64,000 nt of DNA from contig VLTN01000002.1 of assembly GCA_008330645.1 (NCBI GenBank), forward strand, positions 1,116,001 through 1,180,000, in the 5' to 3' direction. Shown here piece by piece: positions 1-58,036 of the stretch. The notes beneath the pieces were generated by a model that saw only the letters and a program-made list of their open reading frames with translations, was not told the DNA's origin and did no database searches. Position numbers and translations under genes: made by a program. This stretch comes from Cafeteria roenbergensis. Taxonomy: Eukaryota > Sar > Bigyra > Bicosoecida > Cafeteriaceae. Within the stretch, counting starts at the first letter, position 1. Every line of letters starts with the position of its first letter.

Positions 1-3000
1 GCATCGAACGCCTCGGTGGCAACCGGCGCCGACGCCAGCGAGGGCGGCCGCCGCAAGGGCGGTGCCGTGACCGCTTCGGGCTCGGGCGGCTCGGCAATCG
101 GCGACCCCAAGGGGAGGCGAGGCAGCGTGGCCAGCTCCATCGCGTCCCGAAGGACGCCCCGCATCAACTCGGGCAAGGCATTCACCGCGCTGCGCATCGA
201 GGAGGGGGCGGCGGAGGACGACCAGTCCGTGCAGATGCAGAGCCCCGCTGGTGACGGCGAGATGCCGCTGCCCGTGGCGCAGGGCGCGGCCGCGGACCTC
301 CCCGGGCGCACCGGGTCCGGGCGGTCGGGGTCTGTCGGTGCGAGCCGGAGCAGCAGCACCCCCGCGGCGCAGGGCGAGAGGGACGACGAGGACGGGGAAG
401 GAAGCGAGGGCGGGCCCGAGGGCACGGACGCCGGCTCGGGCACGCTGGCCGGCAGGCAGACGGCGACGCCGCTGCACGACGACGGCAACGACGAGACCAA
501 CCTCATGGCCCTGGGGCGGCGGCTGGTGCGGGACGCGCTCACGCTGCTCGAGTGCTCGCGGCACGGCCTGTCGGAGTCGGAGCTCCTGGAGCTGCTGGCC
601 CCTCCCGGGCGGGAGCGCCTGCCCCCCGTGGCGTGGGCGCGGCTGTACCGCACGCTGGAGGTGTACCTGCGGCCGCAGGACGAGGGAGGCGAGGGCATCA
701 TCGGCTTCTTCCACCAGCAGATCCGCTTCGCCGTGCGGCGCCGCTACCTCTCGCACTCGCGGGACGCGGAGCCCCGCGTGATGGAGCGGCTGGCGCACTA
801 CTGCGAGGCCAAGGCCGATCCGACGGGCGACGGGAGGTGGCTTGGCAAGTCCCAGCGCCACTTCGACGACTTGGTGTTCTACCAGCTGGGCGCGCACGAC
901 TACCTCGGCCTCCAGCGGACTCTGGGCAACATTCGCTTCATCGAGGCCAAGGTGGCCTTCGGCGGCGCCACGGCCGAGCACCTGCTCCGGGACTACTTCC
1001 AGGCGCAGGACTGCCTTCGCACGGTCAAGTTTTCGCTGCTGCGCGACCGCCTGGCCGGGGCGCCGCTGCGGCAGCGCAAGTCTGCGACCTCCAGCCCGCG
1101 CGCCTCGCGAAGCAGTCCGGTCGCGACCTCGGCGCGCGGCGGCGGCGGCGGCACCTCCGGCGGCTTCTCCGTCGCATCGGGCCCCACGAGCGTCGCAGGC
1201 ACCGCGTCGGCGACTCTGAGCCTGGTCCCGAGCTCGCCGGGCTCGCGCCAGGTCACGCGCTCCGGGAACCAGGCCAGTCCCCGGACCCCTTCCAGCTCGG
1301 GCAGCGGCAAGCAGCTTGTTGCTGCCGCGTCCGACGGCTCTGCGAGCGGGCAGGGGGGCCCGCCCGTCGTTCGGCTCTCCCGCACAGGCGTGGTCTCCCA
1401 CTACGACTCGTTCCGCGTCTTCGTGAGCGGCCACCAGGCCCTCCTGGCCGCGTTCGCGAGGCTCACGCTGCAGTTTGCCCTCTCCCAGCCGGACGACACC
1501 GCACCGCACGTGGCGGCGGCGGCCGTGGTCGAGAGCCACCTGCGCTCCCTGACTCTGGAGATGGAGACGCGCGAGAAGAGTGCCCGCGACAGAGCCGCCT
1601 TCGAGGTGCGCCGGCTCAGAAAGGCTGAGTGGCTCGCCCAGCGCATCGCGCTGCACGTTCGCGACGACTTGCGGGCCTGGGCCGCGGCTGGCTTCGCCCC
1701 CGCGCAGGTGTCGGCCATGGCGTCGGCGGACGCAATCGCCGCCGACGAGCTGGGACAGGGCCTCGAGGGCTGGGAGGCGCTGGGCGCCGTGCGCAAGCCC
1801 GACGCCGGTTCCTCAGGCTCGCCATTCTCGCCGGCGCCTCTCGCGGCCGCTGCCGCCGAGGCCGACCCCTGGGTGGTCGCCGCTGCCGCGGCTCGCGTTG
1901 CCAGGCTGGCACAGCAGGCTCGCAGTCGGGATAGCGCACCCAGCCGGCCGCCCAAGCTCGGTCACGCCTCCGCCTCGGCGGGCGGGCCTTCATCGAGGCG
2001 CTTCTCGTCCAGAACCGGGTCCGCCACGCCGCGCAGCTCGTCCTCGTCGGCGTCCAAGCGCGCGACGTCGGGCGGCTCGACGCCCTCCGCGAGGTCTCGG
2101 CGCCGTAACACCGCGGTGCTGCCTGGCGCGGTGGCCGTGAGCCGCGCCGCTGCCGCGGGCATGCTGGCTGCCGGACTTCACCCCTGCTGGCCGGTCACCG
2201 CAGGCACGGCGGCGGCCTTGGAGCTCATGCCCGTGGCCGTGGCCAACCTGGAGCAGGCGCTGTGCCGCCTGCGGTGGGAGCTGAGCCGGGCGAGCGACGG
2301 CCTGACGATGCGGAACATGCCTCGGCGCTACTGCGAGTTCGTGAACAAGCCGCGGCACAACCGCATCGTGGCCGACTTTGCGGGCTTCTCCTCGGAAATC
2401 ACGACTCTGGCCATGCCAAGCCTGGGCAGCGTGACGCGCTCAGGCGCCGCGCCGCCCTCCACCCCCACTGCCGACGGCGAGGCCGGCGCAAACACGGGCA
2501 TGATCATCGCGATCGGCTTCAAGGACGGCGCGGTGCAGCTCGTCGATGCGGCCACGGGCGAGACAAAGTCGGAGCTGCGCGTCGGGGGCCACTCGGGCCC
2601 CGTGTCGGCGCTTGTGTTTGCCGGGGACGGACAGCGCCTGGCGAGCGGCGGCAACGACTCGCGGGTGGTCATCTGGGACGTGGGGGGGCAGTCCAAGCTT
2701 GCCGACGTGTCCGAGCACACGGCAGCGGTCACCTCGGCGCTGTGGATCGAGACGCGAGGCCACCGGCCAGCAGCCGGCCACGCCAGGCACGGCTCAAGCC
2801 GGCACAGCGTGCGCAGCGGGGCCGGTCGCCGCGGGCCTCGTGGCACGTCCCGCCGGAAGCGCAGCACAGCCGTCGGGCGCGGCAGCCGCATCCTGCTCAC
2901 AGCGTCGATGGACCGCTCGCTCTGCCTGTCGCAGGAGCTGGCGGGGTCTCGGTCCATGGCTGCGTCCAAGGCGGGGCCGGAGACGCGGTACGAGCTGCTG

Positions 3001-6000
3001 CGTCGCATTAAGATGAGCAGCAACCCGGTTCTGAGCCTCGCCTTCGCCCAGGCCACGCTGACTGTGGCGGCGGGACACATGGACGGCCGGGTCAGCATTT
3101 TCGACGCCTCGGCCCCGACGCTGGGGCTGGTTCCCCTCCAGTCGTGGTCGGCGAACCGGCTGGCAGGGGTCGTCCGCCTGCAGTACTCGACCGACGGGAC
3201 AGTGCTCGCCACGGGAGGGCTGGACGGCAAGATTCGGCTCTTCTCGTCCCGGGGGGAGGGCGAGGGCTCGTCCAGCGGCGACGAGGCGTCCCCCGCGGAC
3301 GGGCGCGGCCACGCTCGCAGCTCCACGTCGGGCGCCGCTCTCGCCCGCGGGGCTGCGGGTCGGGCGGCCGCCGCGGCGATGCTGCGCGCCCCCTCGGACG
3401 CCGACGAGGAGGAGGACGCCGCCGCGGACGTGGTGTGGCACGAGCGGCCCATGAAGTGGCAGGCGCCCTCCTCGCTCTCCGGCCTGCACTTCAGCGAGGA
3501 CGGGAAGCGCCTCGCTGTCAGCTGCCTGGAGCGCAAGGCCACGGTGCTGCGGGTGAGCGACGGCGCCGAGGAGCTGGCGCTGACGGGCCACGCGTCGGCA
3601 GTCACCGCGGCAATGTTCTGGCCGGGCTCCAACGACAGGCTGGTGACAGCCTCCAAGGACAAGACGGTCAAGTGCTGGGACGCGGGGGGCGTCACCTCGC
3701 TCGGGGTGGGCCAGCTGGCGGTTCGCAAGGCGCTGCCGGAGACGATTGCGCTGGACACGATGCGCGCCATTGCAGCGGCCCACGTCAACGCCATGTCGCC
3801 AGAGCGCCAGGAGACTGGCAGAGGCTCGCCGCGCCGGGCTCGCCGCTTCGTGCTGCCCGACAGCCACTCGGACGAGTCGGGCTCGGCTGGCATCGGGGCG
3901 GGCAGCGGCTCGGCGCCGCGAGTGGGACCCGCGCCCACGGCCGGCTCACCCGTGACATCCACTCCCGGGTCCGTGGTTCCCATGTCGGTGGCGGCGGCAG
4001 CGGCGACGGTGACCTCCTCCCGCACGGCCACCCGCGCTCCTCGAGGCGGGCACGCCGTGCGCGTGACGGCGGCGTGCGTCTGCCCGGACGGGTCGCTCCG
4101 CGCCGTCACCGGCGATGCGGACGGCGACATCAAGGTGTGGGACGGCGCGTCCGGCGACGAGCTGGCCGTGCTCCTCGGGCACGCCGCTGCCATCTCCGTG
4201 CTCCACTGGACGCGAAACGGCGCGATCCTGGTGTCGGCCGACGCCGGCGGGACGTGCTTCGTCTGGGACGGGCTCCGGCTGACGCACAAGGTCATCGTGC
4301 CCGTCGCGATCGGGGTGGCCATCACCTCCGTCACGACGTCGACGTTTCCCACCTCGCTGGTGGAGGGCCGCCCGCACCCCTTGCCGTCCCGCCGCGCAGA
4401 GCGCGAGCGGAACCGCCAGAGAGAGCTCGCGCGGAGGGAGCGAGCCCGCGCTGCGGGCGCCTCGAGCGGCTCCGACTCTGCCAGCAGCGTGAGCACCGGG
4501 GACGAGGGCAAGGGCGCGGCGAAGAAGGGCGGCAGGCACGGCCACCACCGGAGCTTCAAGCTGACGGGCGCCGCGGCGGCCGTGCTGTCGCTGACGGGGC
4601 CGATTCCGGGCGCGGCCAAGACCAGGGACCAGGAGCGCGCAGACGCGCGCGCGGCCCGGCGGCACAGGCGGGAGGAGCGCAGCCGCCTGCGCGAGCGCAA
4701 GGTGATGGTCATCGTGGGGCTGGCGGACGGCCGCGTTGTCGGCTTCGACCCCAGCAACGGGATGCCCTGGACCAGGCTCATCGACGCCGTGGGCGTGCTG
4801 CAGGCGCCGGATTTCGGGGCCGGCGACGGCGTGCGCGACTCCCCCATGCGCGGGGCATCGCGGCGAACGGGTCGGCGCGCCTCCACCGGCATGGCCCAGA
4901 CCTCGCCCGAGGCCAGCACAGCTGTGTGCGCGCTGCGCATCGTCGGGCCCTCGCGCGGCGCGGTGCCCAGCTCGTCCGCCCCGGCGCCCCTCTGCTCGGG
5001 CACCATCGGCCCGCCGGTGCCGCCCCCGCCGGGAATGGCCGAGGACCCCTCCGCCTCGAGCGGGCCGCACGGCAGCAAGGTGCCGTCCGGCGTCGGGGGG
5101 CGGGGGGGGCTCGGCACGGGCGCGACCAGCAGCGTGTCGGCACTTGGCGCGGCGCCGCTCGGCCGGGGCACCTCGTCCAGGGCCTCGATGGCATCCGTGC
5201 GCTCGGGAAGCGGAGGGGGGGGCGCGAAGCGGCGCGGAGGGCCCCGGGCGTCCGACGCCGACGACGCCGACGGTCCCGCCTCCGGCGGCGGCCGGAGCGT
5301 CTCTGCCGACGCCGGCGGCGCAAGGCGGTCGTCGGATGCGGAGCGGCGAGCCGCTGCCGGGCCCACGAGCTGGCTCGAGTACACTTCGACCGAGGACCCG
5401 CCCGAGCAGGTGCGCGGCATTACGCCCATGAACCGGGTCAGCCGGCTCTTCATCCTGACGCGCAGCGGGTCGCTGGCGGTGCTGCAGCTGTCGAGCATGG
5501 AGGTGGTCCACAGGGAGACCATGTCCGAGGACGCGGGTCCTTTGGGCAAGGCAGTGGCGAGCCTCGCCGACGCGGACATCGCCCCAGACGCCTCCCGCGT
5601 CGCCATGGCGCCGAACAACCCGCTCGGAGACTCCGTCGGGCTCGGAGACCGGTCCGGCACGGAGGTGCCGAGGCTGGTCGTGGGACCTGCCGCCTCGCTG
5701 TTCCGCTCTGAACGGGCGCCGGTCCGCCCTCTCGTGGGGCAGCTCGACGAGGACGACCTGGCGGGCGCACGCGCTGCAGCAGAGGCAGACGAGCTGGCAG
5801 GCCGAAGGCCGGTGGCAGGCAAGCGCCTGTCGACCGCCACGGGCGCGGGCACCGGGTCCGTGCTTGGCGCGGGCGTGGGAGGCACTTCGGCGGCACCGGG
5901 GGCGGCAGCAGCGGCCAAGGGCGCGGCGGCGTCAGGCGCCGGCCAGCTGGCATCCTCCGCAGTTGAGGACGTGACTGCCCAGGCGGGGGAGGCCGAGAGC

Positions 6001-9000
6001 AAGGGCGACGACGCCAGCGAAGCGCGGCCGGCAGAGCCGTGGGTCAGCCGGATCTCCTTCTCGCTGGACGGCACGCTGCTCGCCGCTGGCCTCAAGTCGC
6101 GTGAGGTGGTCGTGGTGGACCCGTCCCGGCCGGGAATGGGCCCGGTCTTTGAGTTCGTAACGGTTGGCGCCGTGTCTGCAGTGGCAGCTGGGCACGGCGT
6201 GATGCCTTGGCCGGACCCGGAGTCTGGGGACGACGACGACGAAGGGGGCGGCGGCGGTGCCGACGCGGCGGGCGGCGAGGTCGGGGACGAGGAGGACAGG
6301 GCGGTCGTGATGCGCCGGCTGCGGGCGAAGCACCAGCGGAGGGCCAGCATCGGCTCGACGGGTGCTGGCGGGCCTGGCGGGGACAGGGCCGAGCTGCGGC
6401 CCACGCGGGGCCGGCGAGGGAGCGGCCTGGCGCTGGTGGAAAGCGGGTCTTCCCAGGGCGGGCGGGGTCACCCGAGCGCGCCTCTGCACCGCATGGGCGT
6501 GAGCGGCAGGATCAGCGGGCCCGAGGACACGGGCACCCTCGTGAACCTGGAGGCTGTGGCGGCGGCGGCGGAGGAGCCTCCTCAGTCCGATGACGAGACG
6601 CCGGAGGACATCGCGCGGGACATGGCCGCGGCAGACGTCGCGATGGCCGCAACCGCTGGCCCGGACGGCGCGATGGGTGGGGACGGCGGGGCCGGCGGGC
6701 GGCGCGCGCATCGCAAGAAGAGCTCCAAGGGCCTTCTCCGGGACGCAGAGCAGGAGCACCGCCTCCGCGACCTGGAGCTGAGCGGTGTGGGCCTCAGCGA
6801 GCAGCGACTGCTCGCCGGCGACGGGGAGGGCCGGATGGGCATCGTGGTGGCCGGCGACGCCACCGGCCAGGTGTTCATCATCGCCCTCGTCGACGTCCTT
6901 CGAGTGGCGGAGGCGCGGCGTCTCAAGGACGCAGTGGCCTCCCAGCAGGAGGCCAGGCGCAAGGCGCGAGAGCAGCGGGCGGAGGCGGAGACGCGCCGCC
7001 GGGACGCCGAGGAGGCCGAGCGGCGGCGTCGCCTCGAGAGCATCCGGCACGCGCCGCCGGCCGAGGCGCTCCGCTTCGCCGCGGACCGCGTCGCCTGCGC
7101 CATCCTGCCGCCCCGGAGGCTGCGCCCGAGCGAGGCGCGCGACCGCCAGCTCTTCGCTGAGTGCATGGCGATGCTGGGCATGGACGCGGGGCTGCTGCCG
7201 CCGCACGAGGTGGCCAGAGTGCGGGAGGCCTTGCCGGAGGGCGGCGACGTGGCGGGGTGCTGGGCGCTGCTGCGGGCGGCCGAGCGGCGCGCCATTGCTC
7301 TGGTCGCATTCCGGGCGCAGGAGCGGGCGGAGGCGTCTGGGGAGGGCGCGGCGGACCCGGGTGCGGGAGTCCTGGCGCTGGCGACGTCAGACCTTGCGAC
7401 GAGGGTCAGCGCAGAGGCGGTCGGCGGCCCCCTGACGGTGTGCGAGGTTCCCGCGCTGCAGGGCCTGGAGGCGCAAGACTGCCTTGTCGAGCGGCTGGCC
7501 GCGTCGCCAGTGTCCTTCGCAGGCGCGAAGCGGCCTGGCAAGCGCGGCTCCTCGGGCGGGCGCACCGGCCGGCTCTCGGGCACAAGGCTGGGCGCGCTGG
7601 TGCCGGGCAGCGCGGGCAGCCGCTTCGTCGTCGCCGCCGGAGCCAGCGGGGGCGGAGGCGGGCCGGGCTCCAAGCGCCAGCACACGCCGTCCCGCCCTCC
7701 AGCTGGCCCGCCCCCGGACGCCAGCGGCGGCGGCGGCGGCGATGGCGCCGCCTCCTTCGACGAGGCGACCCAGTCGGCGCTTGCAGTCATCTCCCGGGGC
7801 ATGTCTCCGGTCGACGTTGCCGCCGTTGCGCTGGAGGTGGTCGCCACCGGGCAAGAGGGGCCCATGCCCCCGCTCACTGTGTGGGAGGCCGCCGCTGCCG
7901 CCGAGTGCTTCGGCGTCCCGCTGGGCGACATGGGCGTGTCCCTCCGCAGCGCAGTTGCCCTGGCCGGTCAGTGGCGCAGCGCGGCCGAGGCGGTCCTGGG
8001 CTTCGAGTGCCCGGCCCGAGACTGGAGCTCGCCAATCGACAATGGCGACATGCCGGCAGAGCTGGCGACCACACGGAGACAGGCTTCATCGGCGCCCGGG
8101 GCTGCCGGGAGCAGCAGCCCGGCAGCGGCTCTGCCCGAGCACGTCTTCGTGCCCTCGCTTCTGCGCGGCGCCCCGCCGCTTCCGAGCCCCTTTTCTGTGG
8201 AGAGCTGCGTGGCCCTGGCAGCCCACTTCGGCGACCTGCCGGACGAGCCACCGTCCGCCGCCGCCGCTGCCGCCGCTGGTTCTTCTGGCGCTGCCGCCGC
8301 CGGCAGCAAGGAGAGGCTTCGCCCCGAGTCCCCTGCGACCGCCCTGTCCGCGAAGCGGGGAGGCAGGAAGGCGAGCTCGCGGTACGCGCCCCACCCGCCC
8401 ATCGTGGCCAAGCCGCGGACCAAGGTGGTGGTGGCGTTTGGCCGGGTCATATCGTCTCCCAGCGGTCGCCCTCCCACGGCAGGAAGCGCCGCCATCGGGC
8501 CCGGCAGCCCGGCCGCCGGCCAGCGGGCCGCCGCGGGCCCACCCCGGCCCGTGGTCGATCCGCGCCAGCTCGCGCTTGCGCGCCAGGCGCTGTTCCGCTC
8601 CCGCTTCTTCGCGCGGCCACGGGCGCTGCTGTGCGTGTTTGGAGGCGCGGGCGGCCTGCACGACCTGCTGGTCCCGGAGCTACGGTCCATCATCCGGCGC
8701 GGGGCGGTCACGGCCGCCATCGCCACGGGGGCCATGCTGCTGGACGGCGGGACCAAGGCGGGCGTCATGGATATGGTCGGCCAGGCCATGATCGGGAGGC
8801 CCGCCGGGTGCCTCCGGGCCCTGGGCGTCGCGCCGGACGGCGTCGTCGACAAGCCGCAGGTGGTGGGGAGCACGGAGGCGGAGGCGGCCAAGGCGGAGGA
8901 GGAGTCCAAGGCCGCCGCGGCTGCGGCCGCTGCGGCCAAGGCGGCCGCTGCAGGCGAGATCAAGAGCGACGCGGACCGCAAGGCCATGGAGGAGCGCTCC

Positions 9001-10122
9001 ATCCTGGAGCGGCTGCTGGGCGAGCGGCGGAGGAAGAAGAAGGTGGAGGAGGAGGCGGCGGCCAAGGCAGCGAGAGCCCCCACGCTGTGGAAGTGCGACC
9101 TGGAGCCCAACCACCCGAGCTTCCTGCTGACGCCGAGCTCCGAGTGGGGGTCGGAGACGTCGACCATGGCGACTGGGATCGCGGTGCTTCGGCACAAGCT
9201 CCCCACGGTGGCCGTGCTGGCCAACGGCGGGCTCATCGCCAAGCAGGAGGCGCTCACCGTGGTGCGCTCCCGGGTGCCGCTGGTCGTGCTGGCCGGGTCG
9301 GGGCGCCTGGCCGACACCATCGCGAAGCACGCCATCGCGCGGGCGCAAGCTGAGGGCCACACGCTCTGCTCGCTGGCCGACGCGACGCAGGACGCGAGCC
9401 GCGTGGCGGCGCAGGCGGAAGGGGCGGCCGCGGGGGGAGCCAGCGACAGGGACGCTGCGGCCGCGCCCGACCCGGGGTCCCTGGTGAAGAAGGTCAAGGC
9501 TTGGAGGGACACCCCCGAGGGCCAGCGCCTGGCGGAGGAGGACCCCCCCCTGGCGGAGGTGGCTGCGTACGGGGACCTTCACGTGCTGTCCATTTCCGAG
9601 CCGCCGCACGTGCTGCAGGACCTGATTGTGGCTCTTGTGGACCGGGAGCGGCGGCGGGAGCTCGCCGCCGTGGGGCGGTGGCGGGAGTCGGGGCTCAGGG
9701 GGTCGGGCAGAGACACGGAGGTCGCGAGGCGGGTCGCGTGGCAGTCGCTGCCGGTGCCGCTGCTGGTGTGCGCGGGGGCGGCGAGCGGGTCGGGATCGGG
9801 GGCGTCGCGCCTGGGAGGCATGGACCAGTGGCGCGTCCACGACCGCTACGGCAGCCTGGCAAGATCAGGCGGGTCGCAGGCTGGAGAGGCGAGGGCCGGC
9901 GCGGCAGCAGGGGCAAGCGGCGACGAGGAGGACGCGAACGAGGGCGACCACGGTGGCGACGACGAGGAGGACGACGACGGGGATGGCGACGCGGATGATG
10001 ACGAGGAGAGCGACGGCGAGGACGAGGACGAGGACGCCGAGGAAGGCGACGAGGTCGGTGACGAGGCCCAGGGCGAGAAGGACGAGGTGCTTGTTCACCG
10101 GTCAGGCAGCGATGAAGCCTGA
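1..10122 (+). CDS. Giant NACHT-type WD40 protein with C-terminal TRPM-like SLOG domain (5' partial)
   Basis: The reading frame is open from base 1, so the true start and any P-loop ATPase lie upstream; 3373 residues are visible, in one exon. Numbering from base 1: residues about 169-340 look like the helical/winged-helix part that follows NACHT modules in TEP1/NWD1-type proteins (GLSESELLELL, then FFHQQIRFAVRRRYL). Residues about 834-2300 hold a degenerate WD40 array broken by Ser/Gly/Ala linkers (for example LASGGNDSRVVIWDV, KTVKCWD, GDIKVWDG). A charged coil follows (2301-2348). Residues about 2872-3220 match the SLOG/LSDAT fold of TRPM channels (LLDGGTKAGVM, then EPNHPSFLL and WGSETSTMATGIAVL), without any channel segments after it. 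The last 65 residues are mostly Asp and Glu. Likely a cytosolic scaffold or sensor; the ligand is unknown. Confidence is good for WD40, fair for SLOG, moderate for NACHT ancestry. Confidence 0.8.
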   Translation, partial: ASNASVATGADASEGGRRKGGAVTASGSGGSAIGDPKGRRGSVASSIASRRTPRINSGKAFTALRIEEGAAEDDQSVQMQSPAGDGEMPLPVAQGAAADLPGRTGSGRSGSVGASRSSSTPAAQGERDDEDGEGSEGGPEGTDAGSGTLAGRQTATPLHDDGNDETNLMALGRRLVRDALTLLECSRHGLSESELLELLAPPGRERLPPVAWARLYRTLEVYLRPQDEGGEGIIGFFHQQIRFAVRRRYLSHSRDAEPRVMERLAHYCEAKADPTGDGRWLGKSQRHFDDLVFYQLGAHDYLGLQRTLGNIRFIEAKVAFGGATAEHLLRDYFQAQDCLRTVKFSLLRDRLAGAPLRQRKSATSSPRASRSSPVATSARGGGGGTSGGFSVASGPTSVAGTASATLSLVPSSPGSRQVTRSGNQASPRTPSSSGSGKQLVAAASDGSASGQGGPPVVRLSRTGVVSHYDSFRVFVSGHQALLAAFARLTLQFALSQPDDTAPHVAAAAVVESHLRSLTLEMETREKSARDRAAFEVRRLRKAEWLAQRIALHVRDDLRAWAAAGFAPAQVSAMASADAIAADELGQGLEGWEALGAVRKPDAGSSGSPFSPAPLAAAAAEADPWVVAAAAARVARLAQQARSRDSAPSRPPKLGHASASAGGPSSRRFSSRTGSATPRSSSSSASKRATSGGSTPSARSRRRNTAVLPGAVAVSRAAAAGMLAAGLHPCWPVTAGTAAALELMPVAVANLEQALCRLRWELSRASDGLTMRNMPRRYCEFVNKPRHNRIVADFAGFSSEITTLAMPSLGSVTRSGAAPPSTPTADGEAGANTGMIIAIGFKDGAVQLVDAATGETKSELRVGGHSGPVSALVFAGDGQRLASGGNDSRVVIWDVGGQSKLADVSEHTAAVTSALWIETRGHRPAAGHARHGSSRHSVRSGAGRRGPRGTSRRKRSTAVGRGSRILLTASMDRSLCLSQELAGSRSMAASKAGPETRYELLRRIKMSSNPVLSLAFAQATLTVAAGHMDGRVSIFDASAPTLGLVPLQSWSANRLAGVVRLQYSTDGTVLATGGLDGKIRLFSSRGEGEGSSSGDEASPADGRGHARSSTSGAALARGAAGRAAAAAMLRAPSDADEEEDAAADVVWHERPMKWQAPSSLSGLHFSEDGKRLAVSCLERKATVLRVSDGAEELALTGHASAVTAAMFWPGSNDRLVTASKDKTVKCWDAGGVTSLGVGQLAVRKALPETIALDTMRAIAAAHVNAMSPERQETGRGSPRRARRFVLPDSHSDESGSAGIGAGSGSAPRVGPAPTAGSPVTSTPGSVVPMSVAAAAATVTSSRTATRAPRGGHAVRVTAACVCPDGSLRAVTGDADGDIKVWDGASGDELAVLLGHAAAISVLHWTRNGAILVSADAGGTCFVWDGLRLTHKVIVPVAIGVAITSVTTSTFPTSLVEGRPHPLPSRRAERERNRQRELARRERARAAGASSGSDSASSVSTGDEGKGAAKKGGRHGHHRSFKLTGAAAAVLSLTGPIPGAAKTRDQERADARAARRHRREERSRLRERKVMVIVGLADGRVVGFDPSNGMPWTRLIDAVGVLQAPDFGAGDGVRDSPMRGASRRTGRRASTGMAQTSPEASTAVCALRIVGPSRGAVPSSSAPAPLCSGTIGPPVPPPPGMAEDPSASSGPHGSKVPSGVGGRGGLGTGATSSVSALGAAPLGRGTSSRASMASVRSGSGGGGAKRRGGPRASDADDADGPASGGGRSVSADAGGARRSSDAERRAAAGPTSWLEYTSTEDPPEQVRGITPMNRVSRLFILTRSGSLAVLQLSSMEVVHRETMSEDAGPLGKAVASLADADIAPDASRVAMAPNNPLGDSVGLGDRSGTEVPRLVVGPAASLFRSERAPVRPLVGQLDEDDLAGARAAAEADELAGRRPVAGKRLSTATGAGTGSVLGAGVGGTSAAPGAAAAAKGAAASGAGQLASSAVEDVTAQAGEAESKGDDASEARPAEPWVSRISFSLDGTLLAAGLKSREVVVVDPSRPGMGPVFEFVTVGAVSAVAAGHGVMPWPDPESGDDDDEGGGGGADAAGGEVGDEEDRAVVMRRLRAKHQRRASIGSTGAGGPGGDRAELRPTRGRRGSGLALVESGSSQGGRGHPSAPLHRMGVSGRISGPEDTGTLVNLEAVAAAAEEPPQSDDETPEDIARDMAAADVAMAATAGPDGAMGGDGGAGGRRAHRKKSSKGLLRDAEQEHRLRDLELSGVGLSEQRLLAGDGEGRMGIVVAGDATGQVFIIALVDVLRVAEARRLKDAVASQQEARRKAREQRAEAETRRRDAEEAERRRRLESIRHAPPAEALRFAADRVACAILPPRRLRPSEARDRQLFAECMAMLGMDAGLLPPHEVARVREALPEGGDVAGCWALLRAAERRAIALVAFRAQERAEASGEGAADPGAGVLALATSDLATRVSAEAVGGPLTVCEVPALQGLEAQDCLVERLAASPVSFAGAKRPGKRGSSGGRTGRLSGTRLGALVPGSAGSRFVVAAGASGGGGGPGSKRQHTPSRPPAGPPPDASGGGGGDGAASFDEATQSALAVISRGMSPVDVAAVALEVVATGQEGPMPPLTVWEAAAAAECFGVPLGDMGVSLRSAVALAGQWRSAAEAVLGFECPARDWSSPIDNGDMPAELATTRRQASSAPGAAGSSSPAAALPEHVFVPSLLRGAPPLPSPFSVESCVALAAHFGDLPDEPPSAAAAAAAGSSGAAAAGSKERLRPESPATALSAKRGGRKASSRYAPHPPIVAKPRTKVVVAFGRVISSPSGRPPTAGSAAIGPGSPAAGQRAAAGPPRPVVDPRQLALARQALFRSRFFARPRALLCVFGGAGGLHDLLVPELRSIIRRGAVTAAIATGAMLLDGGTKAGVMDMVGQAMIGRPAGCLRALGVAPDGVVDKPQVVGSTEAEAAKAEEESKAAAAAAAAAKAAAAGEIKSDADRKAMEERSILERLLGERRRKKKVEEEAAAKAARAPTLWKCDLEPNHPSFLLTPSSEWGSETSTMATGIAVLRHKLPTVAVLANGGLIAKQEALTVVRSRVPLVVLAGSGRLADTIAKHAIARAQAEGHTLCSLADATQDASRVAAQAEGAAAGGASDRDAAAAPDPGSLVKKVKAWRDTPEGQRLAEEDPPLAEVAAYGDLHVLSISEPPHVLQDLIVALVDRERRRELAAVGRWRESGLRGSGRDTEVARRVAWQSLPVPLLVCAGAASGSGSGASRLGGMDQWRVHDRYGSLARSGGSQAGEARAGAAAGASGDEEDANEGDHGGDDEEDDDGDGDADDDEESDGEDEDEDAEEGDEVGDEAQGEKDEVLVHRSGSDEA

Positions 10123-15105: not shown

Positions 15106-18100
15106 TCAAAGAACGGCAGCCGCTCGTTCCAGGGCGCCCGCCGCAGCCAAGCAACCCTGCGCCTCCTGACCAGCCGCAAGCGCCGCGTCGCGCAGCAGGC
15201 GGCGGTCGCCGGCACACACGAGCCGCCCAAAGTCCCCCCCGAAATGGAGCACGTGCCGAGAGGCCGCGCCAGAGGCCAGGTCCGCAAGCGCCCCGCCCGG
15301 CCGCCGGGCCAGCCGCGCAGCGCCAGCCCGCAGAGGGTCGAGGCCAGCCCCCGAGGGGAGCGCACTGGCCGCCACAGCAGCCACGGCGTGCGCCGCCACC
15401 TGGGACTTGGGGTCCGTCGCCGCCAGGACGCTCACACCTCCGTCCGTGTTGCAACAGATGAGCCCGAACCGCGGGGGCGCCTTGGTAGCGGGCGGCAGGG
15501 CCGCTCCGGTCGCGTCGTCCGTCATGTGGAGCTTGATGCGCACGAGAGCCGGCACCGGGGCGGAGTGGCGCAGGCCGGCGCAAGCGGCGAGCCGGTCCGT
15601 CGGCTTGCTCATCATCTCAAAGACGACCATGTCTCCGTCCACGGTGGACGCCACGATGCCAGAGCGGCCCGCCCCCGTGATGGCGGCGGTGGAGAGGACG
15701 GGCAGCTGCCTCCCGTCCGATGCCATCGACTCGATGTTGGGCGGCTGCTCCCGCCACTGCAGCAGCCGCACCGACTGGGACACGTCCCCGACCGCAATGA
15801 CCGGCCCCGCGACGGACAAGGACGTCGTCCAGAATCGCAGGTCGTAAAAGGCCCGCTCCTCGAAGTCGCCCGCCGTCCAGTGGAACACGAGCAGACGCAC
15901 GCCCGTGCTCACCACGGCGAAGTTTCCCGTCGGCGTGATGAGCGGAGCCACCGCGGTCACGCCTCTGGTGCGGAAGAGGCGCGGCTTCATGTCGATGGGC
16001 TTGACACTGCCGTTGGGGATGCCCTCCACGCCCAGGTCGCGGCCCAGGCGCAACATCACCATGCGCGACTGCGCAAGCTCGTCCTCGCCGCGGGGGAAGA
16101 CGAAGCCTGTGCCGAGCACCAGCACGGAGTCGCGGCGGGCGCGGGTGTCTCCAGGCAGAGCCATCTCTGACATGCAGAGCACCCGCTCGGAGGGGTCGAG
16201 GCTCAGCTCCTTGACCACCACTCCGGTGCGGCGCTCGTACACCCGCAGGACGTGCCTCACGGTGTCGACGGGGGGCGCGTACTCGTCGGGCGGCGAGCAG
16301 AGGTCGCGGTGCGGGCCCAGGTCAACCTGCTCGCTCTCCTGCCCCTTGAAGCGCATCCGCGCGGCCTCCTCGGCGGCCTCCACGTGCGCGGGGCGGGGCG
16401 TGCGGAACTCGAGCACGACGGCCAAGACGGGGTCGATAAGCGGCTTGCTGGAGCCGGGCGGGAGGGGCGCCGGGGCGGCGGGGGGCGCTCCGGGCCGGCC
16501 TGTGGGCGGCGCCCTCACAACGCGCGGCACCGCTGACACGGCGCGGCAGTACACGACCGCTCGCGGGGTCGCGCCGAGGCCCTGCCGGGTGATGAGCGCC
16601 TCCCCCGCGATCCACGTGTTGGGGTCGGGGCTGGTCACGTCGCTGATGGCGAGGAGGCCGCGGTGGGGGAGGAGGGCCACGACGCTGCGCTGGCCGGAAG
16701 GCACGTGGAGGGGGCAGAGGGAGGCCACGGCAAATGGCGCGAGCGATGCCATGCCGGCAGACGCGCTCGTGACACCGAGGGGCTCCGCCGCAGCAGCCGC
16801 AGCCTTTGCGAGCGGAGTGCCGGCCGCCGATGCAGCAGCAGCCGAGTGCGACGGAGCGCCGGGGCGGGGCGGGCGTCCGGGGGCGTCGGGCACCACTAGC
16901 GGAACCACGTGAGGGCGGCCGCGGCGCGCCACCACCCAGACCGGCTGAGAGGAGAGCACTGCCACCGCTGCGCCCCACCCGCTGAGGTCGGGCACGCAGA
17001 CGATGGACGGCGCACGGGAGAATCGGGCGCACTGGGGGTCCAGTTGGTGCAGAGCGGGGTGGCCGGCGGTGGCATGCGGCGTCGCCTCCGCTCCCGTGGC
17101 GGCGCCGTCCCCTTCCGTCGCGAGCCCCTCTGCCTGGGGCGCCTCCACGGCAGCGGCGGCGGCTTCCGAGGAGGAGGGCGTGCCAGCAGCTGCGGCGGCA
17201 GTGGCGGCAGCGGCGGCCTCAGCAGCTGCCGACGCTGCGGCGGCGGCGAGCGTGGACGGCGGCCGGGTGACCACGCTGTGGTCGACGCGGACCCAGCGGA
17301 GCGCCGTTGCCCTTCGCGGGTCGAGGGGAGGGGTGCGGCCAGAGGCCGTCGCCCCCGGCGGAGGCGCAGCGGCGCCGCCTGTGGGGGCGCCGTCTGCCGA
17401 GGCCAGCTGGTAGACGGACACGTCGCCGGTTGCCATTGCGAGCACGAGGCACGGTCTGCCGGCAATGACAGCCATCGCCACATCGGCCGCTCGCATGTGT
17501 TCATCGCCAGGCAGCAGCCCTCCCACCGGAACAGCGGCCTGCGCCTCGCGCACGCCAAGCGCGCGTCGGGCCATGGCAGCGTCGTCGTTGGCGATGACCT
17601 CCGGGCTCGCGCCGGCGTCAAGGCAGTCGAAGACCACATTGCAGTTCGGCAGGCTCAGCACCTGAATGCGCCCAGATTGGCGGCACACGACCAAGAACTC
17701 GCCCCCCGCTTCCGTCGATACCTCCTCCTCCTCCTCCTCGTCATCATCGTCGTCACCATCACTGTTGTCGTCATCGGCCTCCTCCTCTTCCCCCTTCTTG
17801 GCGTTGCCCCCTCCGCTGCCCAGAGTATCCTGGTTGCCGCTATCAGCGGCTGGCACGGCCAGCTGGGGGGCATGCCCCTCCCCTGCGCCGTCATCACCAG
17901 GCGCGCCAGCGGCCTCCTCCGCCCCCGGCGCGTCGCCGTCCTCGCCGTCAGACCTGGGACGCTTGCGGGAGCCGCTTGCCGCTCCAACACCTGAGACGTC
18001 GGACGCAACTGGGTCCTGCTCAGGATCAGCGGCAGCGGCTGCCGCATCGGATCCGCCAGCAGCACCGCCGTCCTCCTTGGGGTCGTCGTCGTCCTCCAAG

Positions 18101-18893
18101 CCAGGAACGCCCCCGTCATCTGCGACGGCGTCGTCGTCGTCGTCTTCAAAGCCCGGAATGGCCTCCTCCTCTTCTGCAGGGTCGTCCTCGAAGCCCGGGA
18201 GTGCCTCTTCCTCCTCCGCCTCTTCCTCTTCCTGCGCATGCCCGGCGCCGGCGCCGGCAGTGGCTCCCCCGCTGCCGCTAGGGTCCTCGGAGCCAATGCC
18301 CGGGCTCGCCTCGCCCTTGGCCGTCCACGCCGTCCTCCCCCCCGCGAAGATTGCCTCCAACGCGTCGTCAGCACCAGACCCAGTCGATGGCTGCGCCAGG
18401 CCCGGTGTCCTGAGCTGGGTCGGCTCAACGCTGCCGGCGCCGTCGACCTCCCCTCCCGCGATCGGTGCGAGCTCTTGCCGCTGGCCCGAGCGAGGCAGCC
18501 ACGGGTCGGGCTGGGCCACGGGGACCGCTGCGGCGCAGCTCGGGACCACAGCGACATCCATGCCCGGGGTGGCAAGCAAGGTCGGGTTGGCCTCGGCGAG
18601 CTCTGCCTGCGCCGCCCTGCGGCGACGACGGGCGTCTCGAGCTGCAGCGCGGGCAAGGTGTCCCGTCGAGTCCACAAACACGCACACCGCTGTGATGACG
18701 TCCCCCCGCGCCGCGATACGGGCCCCGGCCGCAACCATCAGCTGGCCAACCCGCACACCCGCGTCCTCTGCCTCCTCCGCGTCCTCTGCCTCCTCCGCGT
18801 CCTCCGCGCCCTCCTCCGCTTCGGCCTCGTCTTGGGCATCGCCGGCTCTGCCGGCGTCGGCGGCAGCGGTCTCTCCAGCTCCGCTAGACTCGC

Positions 18894-18930
<37 letters not shown>

Positions 18931-21540
18931 CTGGTCGGCCGCCTGCGGAGCGCGAGATTCGCCGCCCTCGTCCCCCGCCGCAGCGTCATCCTCATCGGCC
19001 GCCCACACTTCGGCCAACGTCACAGACCCGTCGCTCAGCCGCAGCGCGAGCCAGCTTCCCACGGCGCTCGCACCCTCCACCACGGGCGGCGTGGCGTCCT
19101 CAGAGTCCACCTCCAGGTCCACGACAGCCACCTTCCCGCCGTCGGCTGTCGTGCCCGAGTGACCTGCAGAGCCGGGGATGACGAGGTCGAGCCTCTCGAG
19201 GTCCGGCGTGATGACGCGAGCGCCCACGTCGGTAACCTGCACCGCTGCCGCCCCCCCGAAGATGCCCGCTGCGAAGAGGGTCTGCCTGTCGGCGACGAAG
19301 GGGGAGGCCGGCGGGAGCACCTCCTTCAAGTGCTCGGAGCTGGCCAGGGCGCGCGTCGCCCCCTCCCTGGAGATGAGCATGAACCGGTCGAATGGCCTGC
19401 CGGCGTCGTCCAGGGCCGTGCCGGCGGTACCCGGCGCGAAGGCCACCGAAAAGACGCCAACGTAGCCGGAGAGGTTGAGCGGGTTGGAGCGGGGCTTGAG
19501 GCGAAGGCCGCGCTTGATGCTGAGCAGCGCGCCGGTGCGGCCCTCCCCGGCGCAGGCGAGCAGCTCGAGGTCGAGGACCATGTCTGGGCGCTTGTCCTGC
19601 ACGGCCAGCTTGGTGCTCTCGTGAATCAGGCAGGCGTCGACGATCGGCGCCGCAGACGGCAGCCGGGCGTGGCGAACGAGAGACAGCGGTGCCTGGGGCT
19701 TGGCGTCCGCAGGGCGGGGCCGCTTGGCCAGCGACCCCTCTGCCGCGCCGGCCCTGCCTTCACCGCCGGCTGCGCCGCCGTCGCCGTCTCCGGCGAGTGA
19801 ATACGAGAGAAGCACGCTGTCCCCGGTGCGGGACCCCATGAACAGCCAGGCGCCCCCCATGGAGGCCAGGGAGGACGTGGGCGTGGGCGTGGGCCCGGCC
19901 AGCGTCGCGTCCAGCGCGGCCACCTCCGTCCCCCCCGCGCTGGGAATCAGCGTGAGCACGATCGCCTGGCCTGCCCGGGGAACCAGCAGCATGCGGTTGG
20001 GCCGGAGCCACGCCCAGCGGCAGCCTTCCAGCGAGGCCCTGCGCGGGGGCCTGTCCGTGGGCTGCGCGACCTCGGCCGCCCTGCCAGCGCGCGCCTCCAT
20101 GGCCGCGGCCAGCGTCGGCACTGCCTGCCCCAGCGGCTGCGCGATGCGCACGGTGGCCGGGTTGAGGCTCTGTGAGGCGAAGCCGTTCAGCGGGCAGCCA
20201 AGGGCGCGCCCCTGTGTGGCGTACACGATGGCGCTGGGCGAGAGCACCACCACTCCGCCCAGTGGCGACGCGACCGGAATGACTGCGAAGCTGTCGTGGG
20301 GGAGCGCGTCCGCAGTCCATGCCAGCTGCGTGCGGCCGCCAGCGCCAGCGTCCTCCTCCTCCTCCTCGTCCTCGTCGTCCTCGCCGACGTCCCCGTCGTC
20401 GGCCGCACGGCCAGCCTGGCCGGCGTCAGCGTCCTGGTGGCCGGCGCCGGAGTGACCTCGGATGGCTGCAGACGTGGCTGCGAGACGACTGCTTTGGGGG
20501 GGGTCGGTCGGTCCCGCTCCAGCTGCACCACCGCCGGCTGCCGCCTGCGGATCGGCTTCGCCAGCTCCGGCCGCTGCTGCCGGGCCGGACTGCCCCGCTG
20601 ATCTGGCCGACAGCGCTCTGCGGGCTGCCTTGCTTGCCTCGCCGAACGCGCCCGTGCGGAGCGGCCTGGCCTCCGACGGGTCGCGCACCGCGAAGGCCGC
20701 CAGCACGCACGAGTGCCTCACGTAGCCGAGGCGGGCGGCGCATGTCGGGGTCACCTCCACCAGCACCGCAAGCGTGGGCTTCACGTAGCCGGGAAGGAAC
20801 CCCGCGTCGCGCACCACACCAGCCAGCCCCGCTGGGCCCACGTCGGCCAAAGAGGCGATGAAGGGCTGCCCGTGGATGGCGGATGCGGTGGCGAGAACCG
20901 AGTCGGCAGAGCCGCCGAGCGAGTGGCCGGGCGTGCCGGCAGCGGCGGCCACGGCCGCTGCCGCCGCTGCCCCGGTAGGAGGCAGCGACGGAGCGGAGGC
21001 CTGCCGCAGGGGCATGATCGCAACAGACTCGCTGGTGACAATCTGCGCGATGCAGCGGTGCGCCGGGTCCACGATGACCCGGCCGACCGCCTGAGCCGGG
21101 GACGCGTTGCCCGTGGGCGCGAAGGCCGGCACGTTGACGCACGCTGACCGCGACACAACCTCCTCGAAGCTGATCAGCGAGAGGGTCACGAGACGCAGCG
21201 AGGTCGGGTCCAGGCCCAGGATGGCCACCCGGGACGCCTCGAACGAGACTGCCAGCACGTCGCAGGTGGATAGCCCGGACACCGAGCGCGCTGCGCCTCC
21301 CTGGAGCACCACGCGTCGCACCGACGTAGGCCGCTCCGCGAGCTGCAGCGTCGTTACGTGGTCAAGCCGGGCGAAGCCGGTCTCCTCGCCGGCCGCGTTG
21401 GTTCGCGGACGGATTGCAAACACGTCAATTCCGCTCGGTGTGGCAGCCACGAGGTTCCGAGACCCAGGCCCGGCCAGGTCCGCGAAGCACGACGATTCCA
21501 CGCCCGAAGGCGGGATCATGCTCCGGTGGGCCAGGTGCAT
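15106..21540 (-). CDS. CPSF1: CPSF160: cleavage and polyadenylation specificity factor subunit 1
   Basis: Large beta-propeller subunit of the pre-mRNA 3'-end processing complex in the nucleus. One uninterrupted frame of 2144 residues, against about 1440 in animals. The N-terminus (PPSGVESSCFADLAG, RNLVAATPSGIDVF) matches the CPSF160/DDB1/SF3B3 family start. The C-terminal CPSF-A region, about residues 1713-2144, is well conserved: GVVVKELSL, LGTGFVFPRGE, FDLRFWTTSLSV-like block with VIAVGDVSQSVRLLQW, GIVASTVDGDMVVFEM, and SGAGLDPLR equivalent to the GLNPRAFR of animal CPSF160. The extra length is low-complexity insertion: poly-Ser coded by an AGC run (about 871-882), Glu/Asp-rich stretches between about 880 and 1280, and Ala-rich linkers. 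No intron is needed. Divergent from the kinesin-14 gene with a 328-bp spacer. Confidence 0.88.
18895..18927. repeat. (GCT)11 run coding poly-Ser in CPSF160
   Basis: Eleven GCT units on the + strand, read as AGC (Ser) on the coding strand. A pure trinucleotide run, so length differences between strains are likely. Confidence 0.9.
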
Positions 21541-31127: not shown

Positions 31128-34100
31128 TCACTCGCAGGCAAACCCGACGCTGTCGGCGAGGCCCAGGCAATCGGCGGCCGCCACCGCCTCGCCGACAGCG
31201 CAGGCGGCAACCCTCGCAGCGGCATCCAAGCCAGCGCGAAGGCACTCCACAGCCCCCGCTGCGTCGCTGGCTGGCAGGTGTGAGCAGAAGTGAGGGGCTC
31301 TTCCGCCGACGACCTGGCAGGCCGCCGGCCATCCTGGAAGGATCATCGCTACGGTTGCTGGCAGTGCCGGCTCCGAGGCGGGGGCGCCGGCGCTCAGCCC
31401 AGCAGCCTGGAGAAGCAGGCTTGCGTCAGCTGAGGACGCCGCTCTGAGGGCGGAGCGGCGCTCCCACGCGGAGGCGAGCCAGGCCAGCTGCTCGGGCGCG
31501 AGCCCGGTCCGCTGCAGCGCCGCCAGCGGGCTGGAGAGGAACCTGGGAGCCAGCCGCGCCTGAGGCGGCGCCGGCAGCTCTGGAAAGTGGAGGATTGGCG
31601 CGAGGCGGACGGCGTCACGCCCACAGGCAGAGCCCGAGCCGGCAGGCACGCCTGCGGCACCGGCGGGCGCGGCTGGCGGCAGCGTGATGGTGGCCCGATG
31701 CGCGGGAGCTTCGCTGCCGTCCGCTGTTCCCCTCACCGACCAGCGACGCGGCCAGGCGCTGTGCAGAGCCCTCCACTCGCCGTCTCCGCCTGCCGCGAGC
31801 TGATCCGCCGATGCCGACGGCGACGGCGACGACGGCGGGGGCAGGCCGAGGCCGGCCGCGGCGGCAAGCTCTGCCGCGCGCCTGCCGGACCCGCCGCAGG
31901 CTCGCACCAGGGCGCCCCAGCGAAACAGCGGCACCGTGCAACTGAGAAGCGCCAGGGCCTGGGCGCTGGAAGCGATTGTGACGAGCGCAAGCGAGCCACC
32001 GTTCGCAGCGAGCCGCGCCTTGGCCGCCCGCGAGTCGAGCACGATGGAGAGGCTGGTCGACGCAGCGAGGAAGCGGGCTCGCTGGGCGAGCGACGTGGCT
32101 GCGGCGAGGGACGCGGGGTGCAGTCTTCCCGCAACGAGCGACGCGCCGCGCGCCCCCGACACGTCGAGCGCCGGGAGCGGGACGCGGAGCACCACGGCCC
32201 TGCGCCGGAGAGCCGCTGCCCTGGCCATCGACCCCAGCTGCACCCAGGCTGCGCACTGCAGCCTGAGCCAGAAGGCAGGGGACGCGGCCTCACGGGCGGT
32301 CAGCGCGCCCGTGGCCCGCACAGCCGCGATGAACACCCGCACGGCCTGGCGAAACCGCGCGACGCCCCGGAGGGCAGACGTGGTCGATGAGGCTTCCGCT
32401 TGCCCGGCGAGCGCGACGGCCGCCCTGGCGCCCTTGGCCACGTGCTGGCGGCCGGAAGAGGGGGAGGGGGGCACCTGGGGCGTGGCGCTCAGACCGGCGG
32501 CAGCAGCTGGGGAGGGGGCGGAGGCGGCGCCGGCGCCTCCCGCGGTGGCTGGCGCGGAGGGCCGCCCGTGCAGCCGATCAGCAGCCGGGCTGGCTGCGAT
32601 GGCACGGGACGCTGCCTGAGACATGCTCATAGCGGATAGCTTGACGGCGGGCAGCGAGTCGTCCTCGTCGGCCTCTGCGCTCGCCGTCCACGCCAGCGCT
32701 GCGGCCGCCTCCGCCGCGGATCCGGCCGGGTCTGATGCGGCAGAGGCGTCCCCGGTCGCGATGCGGTGGGCGCGGAAAGTCGCTAGCGCGGCATCGATCG
32801 CGAGCGCTCGCCGGCGCTGAAACGCCCTCGCCTTTCGCTCGGCCCAGGCGGCCGCCCACTCGGCACCCCGCCGCCACGCCCCTGCCTCGGGGTCGGCGTT
32901 GAGCCAGCGGGTTCCCACCCCGGCTTCGCCGAAGAGCTGCTCGGCGTACGACCACCAGCGCCTGGCCGCGAGCCGACGGGCGGACTCCCGCGCCGCCTGG
33001 GCCGGGCCTGCTCGCCAGCCTGACGCCGCGGAGCGCCCGCCTGACAGGGCTCCCCCCGAGGACGGCACGGCCGCTGCCTCTGACGCCTGCTGGGCCGACT
33101 GGCAGCCCCTGCGGAGGCCAGGGGGGACCGCCCCTCTACGCAGGTGGCGCGCCGCAGAGCTGCACACGGCGTCGATGCTCACGAGGTGCGGCTGCAGAGC
33201 CATCCCGAAGGAAGGGTCGAACAGGCCGTGGCCAGGCAGAGCCCACTGGAATCCGTTGCCGGCGGCGCAGGGGCAGGCGAGCTCCAGGGCGGAGGGCGGC
33301 GGGTCGTCTCCGGCACGCTCTGCGGCCGTCCGCGGTTCGTGCCCCGTCGGGGCAAACCCGCCGTCGCCGCCGCCGCCGCCAGCGGGGGCCGAGAGCGACG
33401 GGGCCATGCCCGGTGCGGTCGAGGAAGCGCCGTTGCGGCCCGGGGTGGAGCCGGAGGGCGCCGCGCGGCGGCCGATGGGGGAGTCACGCGCTGCCGGGGA
33501 GGCGCGGCCGCCGCCCACGGAGCGGCGCGGCTGCTTGGAGGCCACCCCGTCGATGGCTCGACGAGCAGCGGGGGAGAGAACGCTGGGCGGAGACAGCGGG
33601 GCCAAGTCTGAGGCAGGTGGCTGCGACACGGGTCGCTCCGCGGCCAGGGTCGGGGACGCCGGCGGGGTCGGCAGCGGCGCGGAGAGCGCCCAGGAGGCGG
33701 AGGACGAGGCCGTCGACAGCACGGCGGGCCCGAGCGAGCTGCCCTGGGCGTGGGCGGCAGCAGGCCGCGGGGGGCTGGAGGACACGCTGGAGGACGCGAG
33801 CTGGTCGTGGAGGACCTTGGCGGCGCGGGCTGTGGGGAGCGACGTCTCGACCAGGACCGTGGCCTGCGGAGGGGGGCGGGCGCGGGCGCCTGGGCCGCAG
33901 ACGATGCCCGCGTCCACCATCACGGGCCAGCCTGGAAGAGTCATGGTCCCAGTCATCACAACGGCGGACACGTGGCAGGGGGCCGGTGCAAAGAGAGCCC
34001 CTCCAGAGTCCATCTCGGCGCCATCACCGCCGTCGTCGACGCCCTCTCCCGCTGCGCCACGGCTTGCAGCGCCGCCGCTGCTGGCCATGGAGTCTGCGCC

Positions 34101-37910: not shown

Positions 37911-37943
<33 letters not shown>

Positions 37944-57684: not shown

Positions 57685-58036
57685 CCCCGCCGCCGGCGCC
57701 CGCGGGCCGGGGCGAGTGCGGGCCGGGGCGGCGGGGCGCAGAGGACACGTTGTCGGGCGGGAAAAACCGGCACAGCAATCGAGCAGCCCTGCCGCTGCTG
57801 CACCTGCGCCCTTCCTGACTGCGAACTCGAGCCGCACTCGCCGGGGCCTCCACTCGCCCCTCTCGTGCGCTGCAAGCTTGCTTGGTCAGGCGCTGCCTGC
57901 CCGCGTGCACAGCAGGAACGGGTGCTTCTTGCCCGTAGGGAGCGCCACTCGGCTGTTGCGGACGGACCTGCGCAACAGCATCAAATTGCACTTCTCCGTG
58001 GCGTCCCCGGTTCCCAGCGGCCCAGCCATTTCGGCC
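57685..58036. promoter_or_regulatory. Divergent promoter spacer PAXX-like / SANT-like
   Basis: 352 bp between divergent start codons; GC-rich with no TATA box. The minus-strand frame stays open through part of it without an ATG. Confidence 0.45.

Follow-up and report, generated by a model that had tools for sequence, protein, structure and literature searches.

An open reading frame that enters a stretch of 64,000 nucleotides from the protist Cafeteria roenbergensis (contig VLTN01000002.1, here C2, positions C2:1116001-1180000; the whole stretch is called the window, and window position 1 is C2:1116001) is the 3' part of a gene for a giant protein, in which a domain of the TIR-like family DUF4062, a NACHT ATPase and an array of WD40 repeats follow one another in a single chain whose C-terminal domain is of the SLOG/LSDAT type. 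From this arrangement we hypothesize, giving the reading an even chance, that the gene encodes a TEP1/NWD1-like member of the signal transduction ATPases with numerous domains (STAND) which acts in NAD+ signalling or as an executioner, and to which a nucleotide sensor has been fused.

The frame occupies window positions 1-10122 of the + strand and is still open at the left edge of the window. In the upstream DNA it extends 1285 codons further, to window coordinate -3854 (C2:1112146), which rules out a gene start near the window edge and brings the stop-free total to 4658 codons. A run of this length has a chance probability of about 10^-37 for independent bases of the local composition (about 71% G+C), and the G+C content of third codon positions (GC3), taken in blocks of 300 codons with a shorter final one, lies between 0.83 and 0.94 in each block from codon 301 onward. 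Since GC3 climbs at codon 201 of the full frame, from 0.70 to 0.90, Met201 (C2:1112746) is probably the start of the protein, whose length would then be about 4458 residues. No transmembrane-like hydrophobic window of at least 1.9 was found across the 4658 residues, which rules out a channel. A sequence-only reading of the window had described several domains fused in one giant protein, a long WD40 array, the absence of channel segments and an ATPase expected upstream of the window; the single frame, the repeats, the hydrophobicity scan and a NACHT domain with its nucleotide-binding motifs bear these points out. The features of the frame are as follows, in window positions unless prefixed with C2.

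C2:1114288-1114941, + strand, frame residues 715-932: DUF4062, a TEP1-type, TIR-like predicted NADase domain (PF13271; PDB 11gz).
C2:1115110-1115631, + strand, frame residues 989-1162: NACHT ATPase (PF05729, 4.4e-9, over the cut-off).
1..10122, + strand: portion of the coding frame that lies in the window, ending with the TGA stop (stop-free frame, GC3).
511..765, + strand: NWD1-like winged-helix region (PF25469, HTH_NWD1, below the curated cut-off).
2494..4344, + strand: WD40 repeats broken by low-complexity inserts (PF00400, slice scan).
4345..8409, + strand: long region, largely low-complexity, with some stretches that look like beta-propeller by eye (translation, slice scan).
8410..9672, + strand: C-terminal SLOG/LSDAT domain with low-complexity inserts (LSDAT_prok, alignment, AlphaFold2, Foldseek).
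9673..10122, + strand: tail whose second half is acidic and low-complexity, plus the stop codon (translation).

The N-terminal DUF4062 domain lies upstream of the window, beyond the view of the sequence-only reading. Within the first 1785 codons of the frame, residues 719-805 match PF13271 at 2.2e-8, over the curated cut-off, and a phmmer search of the PDB returned the DUF4062 structure of human TEP1 (11gz) at 1.3e-32. According to a 2026 preprint (PMC13174449), DUF4062 is a TIR-like family whose bacterial members, named Swarozyc, deplete NAD+ in phage defence; the domains of TEP1 and of KpSwz convert NAD+ to ADP-ribose (ADPR) through a catalytic glutamate, and TEP1 hydrolyses both NAD+ and NADP+ via E1008, in an active site that also holds R908, R954 and R976. 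The TEP1 domain becomes more active as its concentration goes up. With the numbering of 11gz set by hand (an offset of 893 places R908, R954, R976 and E1008 on the correct letters), the catalytic E1008 aligns with Glu830 of the frame (C2:1114633-1114635), within the stretch SITDLEV. In an alignment of four sequences, namely the giant protein, TEP1, one Rhodococcus protein and the Chloroflexota plasmid protein L068, the catalytic glutamate and the R976 site are invariant (4/4). As these two positions are kept but R908 and R954 are lost, NADase activity of the domain is plausible, though not certain. With this predicted NADase at the N-terminus, the likely function of the protein differs from that given in the sequence-only reading.

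The NACHT domain carries a Walker A motif, GAPGSGKTS, at frame residue 993 and a Walker-B-like stretch, VLVVMDAINQ, called by eye at frame residue 1088. Across the genome (36,303,456 bases in 167 contigs), searched for NACHT, DUF4062 and LSDAT exon by exon, so that split genes may be missed, the giant frame is the sole match at E <= 0.001 both for NACHT (45 candidates scored) and for DUF4062 (1 candidate scored). The NACHT-type helical region of the sequence-only reading does sit after the ATPase, and is refined here to a putative winged helix on the strength of a weak match to HTH_NWD1, with an E value of 0.0038 at frame residues 1456-1540, below the curated cut-off; a shorter piece scores 21.4 bits (2.4e-4), short of the required 27. 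Further along, the window frame matches PF00400 at 9e-33, with repeats recovered in slices at window-frame residues of about 832-919, 1046-1081, 1158-1228 and 1350-1424, and a weak one, below the cut-off, at about 1001-1035. The model that AlphaFold2 gave for the first WD40 part, run without an alignment, is unusable (mean predicted local distance difference test score, pLDDT, of 34.6). All five slices of window 4321-8400 were free of any Pfam family at E <= 0.01, and a search with NCBIfam gave nothing near a cut-off.

The assignment of the C-terminal domain is based on both profiles and structure prediction. The LSDAT families (PF18171 and PF18139) match well over their curated cut-offs, LSDAT_prok at 1.1e-30 (106.8 bits against 25.4) and LSDAT_euk at 3.5e-14 (53.3 bits against 25.7). 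In an alignment of window 8410-9702 with 25 bacterial relatives, taken from one scan of genome contigs, the conserved motifs GGA, DGGT-GVM, NH--F-L and GSGR-AD are present; in the window, DGGTKAGVM is found at position 8743, LEPNH at 9100, WGSETS at 9145 and GSGRLAD at 9295. A phmmer search of the PDB links the domain to TRPM2 at 2.4e-10, and a profile built from the domain and the 25 bacterial LSDATs matches TRPM2 chains at 4.4e-31. AlphaFold2 modelled the domain with a mean pLDDT of 79.1 and a predicted template modelling score (pTM) of 0.74, the core blocks reaching about 90-97, whereas the N-terminal 48 residues and portions of the inserts are poor. Foldseek found 164 matches in the PDB at E <= 0.001, of which the best 50 are all TRPM channels or fragments, with the MHR1/2 region of TRPM2 at the top (E 5.8e-10, probability 1.00); the TM-scores over the query length are just 0.36-0.48 and the root-mean-square deviations 6-15, so that the closeness of the match is unproven, and the long inserts may explain these values. 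The segment is thus predicted to adopt a Rossmann-like fold matching MHR1/2 of TRPM channels. Both the profile search and the fold prediction agree with the SLOG domain of the sequence-only reading, and with the ATPase now found upstream the STAND-like receptor or scaffold that it suggested also fits. Neither of the outcomes that it had named as refuting, a model lacking the Rossmann-like fold or a gene beginning close to the window edge with no ATPase, was observed. Its label "TRPM-type" is to be replaced by the family name LSDAT, the prokaryotic model scoring higher and the pocket being of bacterial kind.

The pocket can be compared with that of TRPM2. In the human channel Y295, R302 and R358 bind ADPR (PMC6759353); gating by ADPR requires the pairs R278/R334 in zebrafish and R271/R329 in sea anemone, with conflicting results for the human R302/R358 pair (PMC6914804), and in the choanoflagellate channel srTRPM2 both F268 and R275 are essential (PMC11479946). 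In the giant protein the aromatic position is Trp3049 (window-frame numbering), as in 24 of the 25 bacterial LSDATs, and the R358 site is kept as Arg3102, an arginine in 19 of the 25. Taken together with the R302 site, considered below, the residues indicate a pocket of the bacterial kind, and a plainly TRPM2-like SLOG domain was rejected on this ground and on the higher score of the prokaryotic model.

Relatives of this domain are short proteins in bacteria. With tblastn it matched 2 of 72,556 plasmid records and none in phages, and a comparison with viral contigs gave 26 pattern matches and no relative. All 27 bacterial LSDAT frames (25 loci and 2 plasmids) have 223-744 residues; among the ten scanned with Pfam, six carry SLATT_1 (plus DUF4231), a predicted nucleotide-responsive membrane effector (PMC7159879, PMC9503650), four consist of LSDAT alone, and none has NACHT or WD40. 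In samples of three bacterial phyla, PF18171 occurred in 29/386, 17/400 (15 over the cut-off) and 5/395 (3 over the cut-off) genomes, and the frames with over-cut-off matches in these 1181 genomes have at most 761 residues, by which the same fusion in bacteria was rejected within the samples. A 1348-residue frame (L063) was likewise discarded, its PF18171 match being below the cut-off and its 780 readable residues looking by eye like a hybrid histidine kinase. In the PDB, chain 6A of 9nw3, a "Cation channel family protein" of 346 residues, is matched by the LSDAT profile (7.5e-15) along almost the full length of the domain; it is short for a channel and is perhaps a stand-alone LSDAT protein.

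The genome holds two LSDAT frames, that of the giant protein and one on contig C68 (C68:71967-79880, + strand, corresponding to L007:5968-9900 continuing in L013:1-4080). The latter has 2637 codons, with LSDAT in its N-terminal part, a C-terminal part matching TRP channels (TRPC4 at 7.2e-8; TRPM weaker, at 0.001 and up) and five hydrophobic windows of at least 1.9, and its sequence identifies it as a TRPM-like channel. Its pocket, read by hand from short, weakly scoring stretches, has tryptophan as the aromatic residue and keeps the sites of zebrafish TRPM2 Arg278 and Arg334. In a phylogenetic tree this channel groups with TRPM2 (100/98) and the SLOG domain of the giant protein falls on the bacterial side; when the channel is left out the domain remains separate from TRPM2, though weakly supported (65/82), and TRPM2 is placed beside one Beggiatoa row. 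An approximately unbiased (AU) test fails to reject a single group of the three (p 0.248), and the tree contains a very long branch for the giant protein, two close TRPMs, and bacterial rows obtained with a query that contained the very domain. Separate origins of the SLOG domain of the giant protein and of the TRPM type are favoured by the sequences without being established.

The mechanism we propose starts from what is seen in the protein itself, that is, the domain order in one frame, the NACHT motifs, the catalytic glutamate, the predicted SLOG fold and most of the conserved SLOG residues, and carries over from relatives the NADase chemistry of DUF4062 (TEP1, Swarozyc) and the binding of ADPR by the SLOG domain of TRPM2. 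By its position DUF4062 would be the effector domain of an APAF-1-like STAND protein, as the authors of the TEP1 work put it (PMC13174449). The WD40 repeats or the SLOG domain would hold the protein inactive, and a partner recognised by the WD40 repeats, or a nucleotide occupying the pocket of the SLOG domain, would release the autoinhibition; the NACHT ATPase would then oligomerise, and the clustered DUF4062 domains would split NAD+. The C-terminal SLOG domain would bind a nucleotide, most likely derived from NAD+, and would either feed back on the activity or switch it on. Such control could take three forms, with which the data agree equally: a nucleotide from another source may activate the protein, its own product may act as positive feedback, or the nucleotide may shut it off. 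It is in this conditional sense that we infer catalysis, the identity of the ligand, the coupling and a role in defence or cell death, as well as the sensing of a ligand by the SLOG domain. More tentatively, and with the odds against it, writer and reader may share one chain: DUF4062 would make ADPR or a derivative and SLOG would read this product, forming a self-amplifying or self-limiting NAD+ switch, and the product may also open the TRPM-like channel of contig C68, which would couple the loss of NAD+ to an influx of cations, perhaps in giant-virus infection.

Several observations weigh against the STAND-type NAD+ signalling protein that we favour. Of the three active-site arginines of TEP1 one is kept (R976), both R908 and R954 aligning with glycine; the R908 site is Gly in the giant protein, Arg in TEP1, Arg in Rhodococcus and Asn in Chloroflexota, and the R954 site, in the same order, Gly, Arg, Gln and Asn. 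The human DUF4062-NACHT proteins NWD1, NWD2 and NPHP3 were inactive in vitro, in the assay that showed TEP1 to be active (PMC13174449). The site of the ribose-binding arginine of TRPM2 (human R302, R275 in srTRPM2) is occupied by Met3056, with methionine in 12 and arginine in none of the 25 bacterial LSDATs; because this arginine and the aromatic residue are both essential in srTRPM2, the SLOG domain may bind a ligand other than ADPR. ADPR is a natural guess on account of the partner domain, DUF4062, yet the pocket residues by themselves do not point to it specifically. PADLOC returned no family in any of four pieces from the first 1785 codons and the SLOG domain, and no link to defence was found among the neighbours, some of whose frames were scanned. 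Part of this evidence would suit a scaffold without NADase activity, with a structural DUF4062, assembly of a complex through NACHT and WD40, and SLOG as a metabolite sensor: the inactivity of the human proteins and the two glycines agree with it, as does the weak winged-helix match, which points to NWD1. We nevertheless regard such a scaffold as rather unlikely, given that the catalytic glutamate and R976 are kept, that the sole strong PDB match is to a domain known to be active, and that the missing arginines vary in putative bacterial NADases as well, the R908 site in the Chloroflexota protein and the R954 site in both this and the Rhodococcus protein.

The SLOG domain could also be an enzyme in its own right, cleaving the N-glycosidic bond of a nucleotide in the manner of LOG proteins and so removing or editing the product of DUF4062. 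In AMP-like substrates, SLOG domains of the LOG clade break the bond between base and ribose, and viral SLOG domains have been proposed to act on ADPR derivatives (PMC9503650), and in the TRPM2 chanzyme an ADPR-consuming enzyme stands beside the ADPR sensor (PMC11479946). Against this, the known role of the LSDAT clade in TRPM2 is that of a ligand-binding sensor (PMC6759353, PMC6914804, PMC11479946) and the membrane effector fused to six of the ten scanned bacterial relatives fits sensing, and we judge an enzymatic SLOG domain to be improbable. All of the above presumes a single gene. Two genes brought into one frame by transcript splicing, an undetected frameshift or a contig misassembly would be compatible with the roughly 1350 residues, largely low-complexity and devoid of family matches, that separate the WD40 part from SLOG, and with a published average of 1.67-1.89 introns per gene in C. 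roenbergensis (PMC6972860). The stop-free run of 4658 codons (p about 10^-37), a coding-like GC3 throughout the frame and known domains at its front, middle and end make this very improbable, and we retain the STAND-type NAD+ signalling protein as a single polypeptide.

The rest of the window holds other open frames. On the - strand, 15106-21540 is a frame of 2144 residues with a CPSF_A match and propellers of RSE1/DDB1/CPSF1 below the cut-off (CPSF1/DDB1-like), and 45487-48264 one of 925 residues with a voltage-gated chloride channel (PF00654, 6.1e-62) and a CBS domain; on the + strand, 43963-45156 matches NIPA magnesium transporters at 1.4e-15. The frames at 31128-35789 (-, 1553 residues), 36538-40590 (+, 1350 residues) and 57338-60166 (+, 942 residues) have no Pfam match. 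Long open frames without a gene are common in DNA of such high G+C.

The fusion of SLOG to a TEP1-like core proposes nucleotides as the class of signal, which can be tested directly. If the reading is correct, it would represent a one-protein form of the TIR-to-SLOG signalling that bacteria divide between two proteins, so that the maker and the reader of a stress signal, as predicted from sequence, may share one molecule. C. roenbergensis, a unicellular marine predator, is a cultured host of a giant virus and of a virophage, and because the giant frame is the sole NACHT and the sole DUF4062 match found in the genome, the loss of a single gene could put this class of protein to the test in the protist.

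The DUF4062-NACHT-WD40 core order (TEP1, NWD1, L068) and the LSDAT domain are both known. In TEP1, TROVE and vWA parts stand before DUF4062. In the C. roenbergensis genome TROVE has no match (a control was positive in Deinobacterium), and neither TROVE nor vWA is among the 8 families detected at E <= 0.05 in the first 1785 codons of the frame; the giant protein is therefore not TEP1 itself, the TROVE match being absent. The major vault protein families PF11978 and PF01505 had no match in the genome, but no control matched either. The likeness to human TEP1, a vault-associated NADase of DUF4062-NACHT-WD40 order (PMC13174449), lies in the equal order of the three domains, in the strong DUF4062 match and in the retained glutamate and R976, and the difference in the loss of two of the three arginines and in the SLOG tail, which is undescribed in TEP1. 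The Chloroflexota plasmid protein L068 (CP069395.1 59224-64170, 1648 residues) shows the same domain order, with DUF4062 (1.1e-13), NACHT (4.3e-7) and 11 WD40 stretches, and has the same catalytic glutamate; SLOG is missing from the families matched by its N-terminal 880 and C-terminal 149 residues and from the best 25 of the 62 that match its WD40 part. As the core thus occurs in bacteria without SLOG, it is the SLOG tail that sets the giant protein apart. NWD1, NWD2 and NPHP3 share DUF4062 adjoining NACHT, with the weak, below-cut-off winged-helix match pointing to NWD1, but the human proteins were inactive as NADases (PMC13174449) and are not known to carry SLOG. The main text of the preprint is silent on SLOG, LSDAT and TRPM2. 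Swarozyc, the bacterial anti-phage NADase, likewise has DUF4062 with the catalytic glutamate, joined to a short helix-turn-helix or winged auxiliary domain that binds the phage portal, where the giant protein has NACHT, WD40 and SLOG (PMC13174449). The sequence-only reading knew of no described system with this domain order, and we found no published description of a DUF4062-NACHT-WD40-SLOG fusion in the open-licence literature, nor the fusion in the 1181 bacterial genomes, eukaryotic proteomes lying outside this coverage.

On the side of the SLOG domain, TRPM2 has the domain itself (MHR1/2), whereas the giant protein has no channel segments and methionine for Arg302 in the pocket. The bacterial LSDAT and LSDAT-SLATT proteins are matched by a profile scoring above the TRPM model and share the WG-E-T-S and GSGRLAD motifs, but they have 223-744 residues and either stand alone or are coupled to a two-transmembrane SLATT effector. 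In Thoeris, the TIR protein and the SLOG-bearing ThsA are separate proteins, and the SLOG domain of ThsA belongs to another, YpsA-like clade. The similarity to Thoeris, in which TIR makes an ADPR derivative read by SLOG (partly after PMC9503650), is a resemblance only. TIR and SLOG belong to one clade of Rossmannoid domains, and TIR-SLOG antiviral systems have been described (PMC9503650); the giant protein differs from Thoeris in holding a TIR-like and a SLOG domain within one STAND protein.

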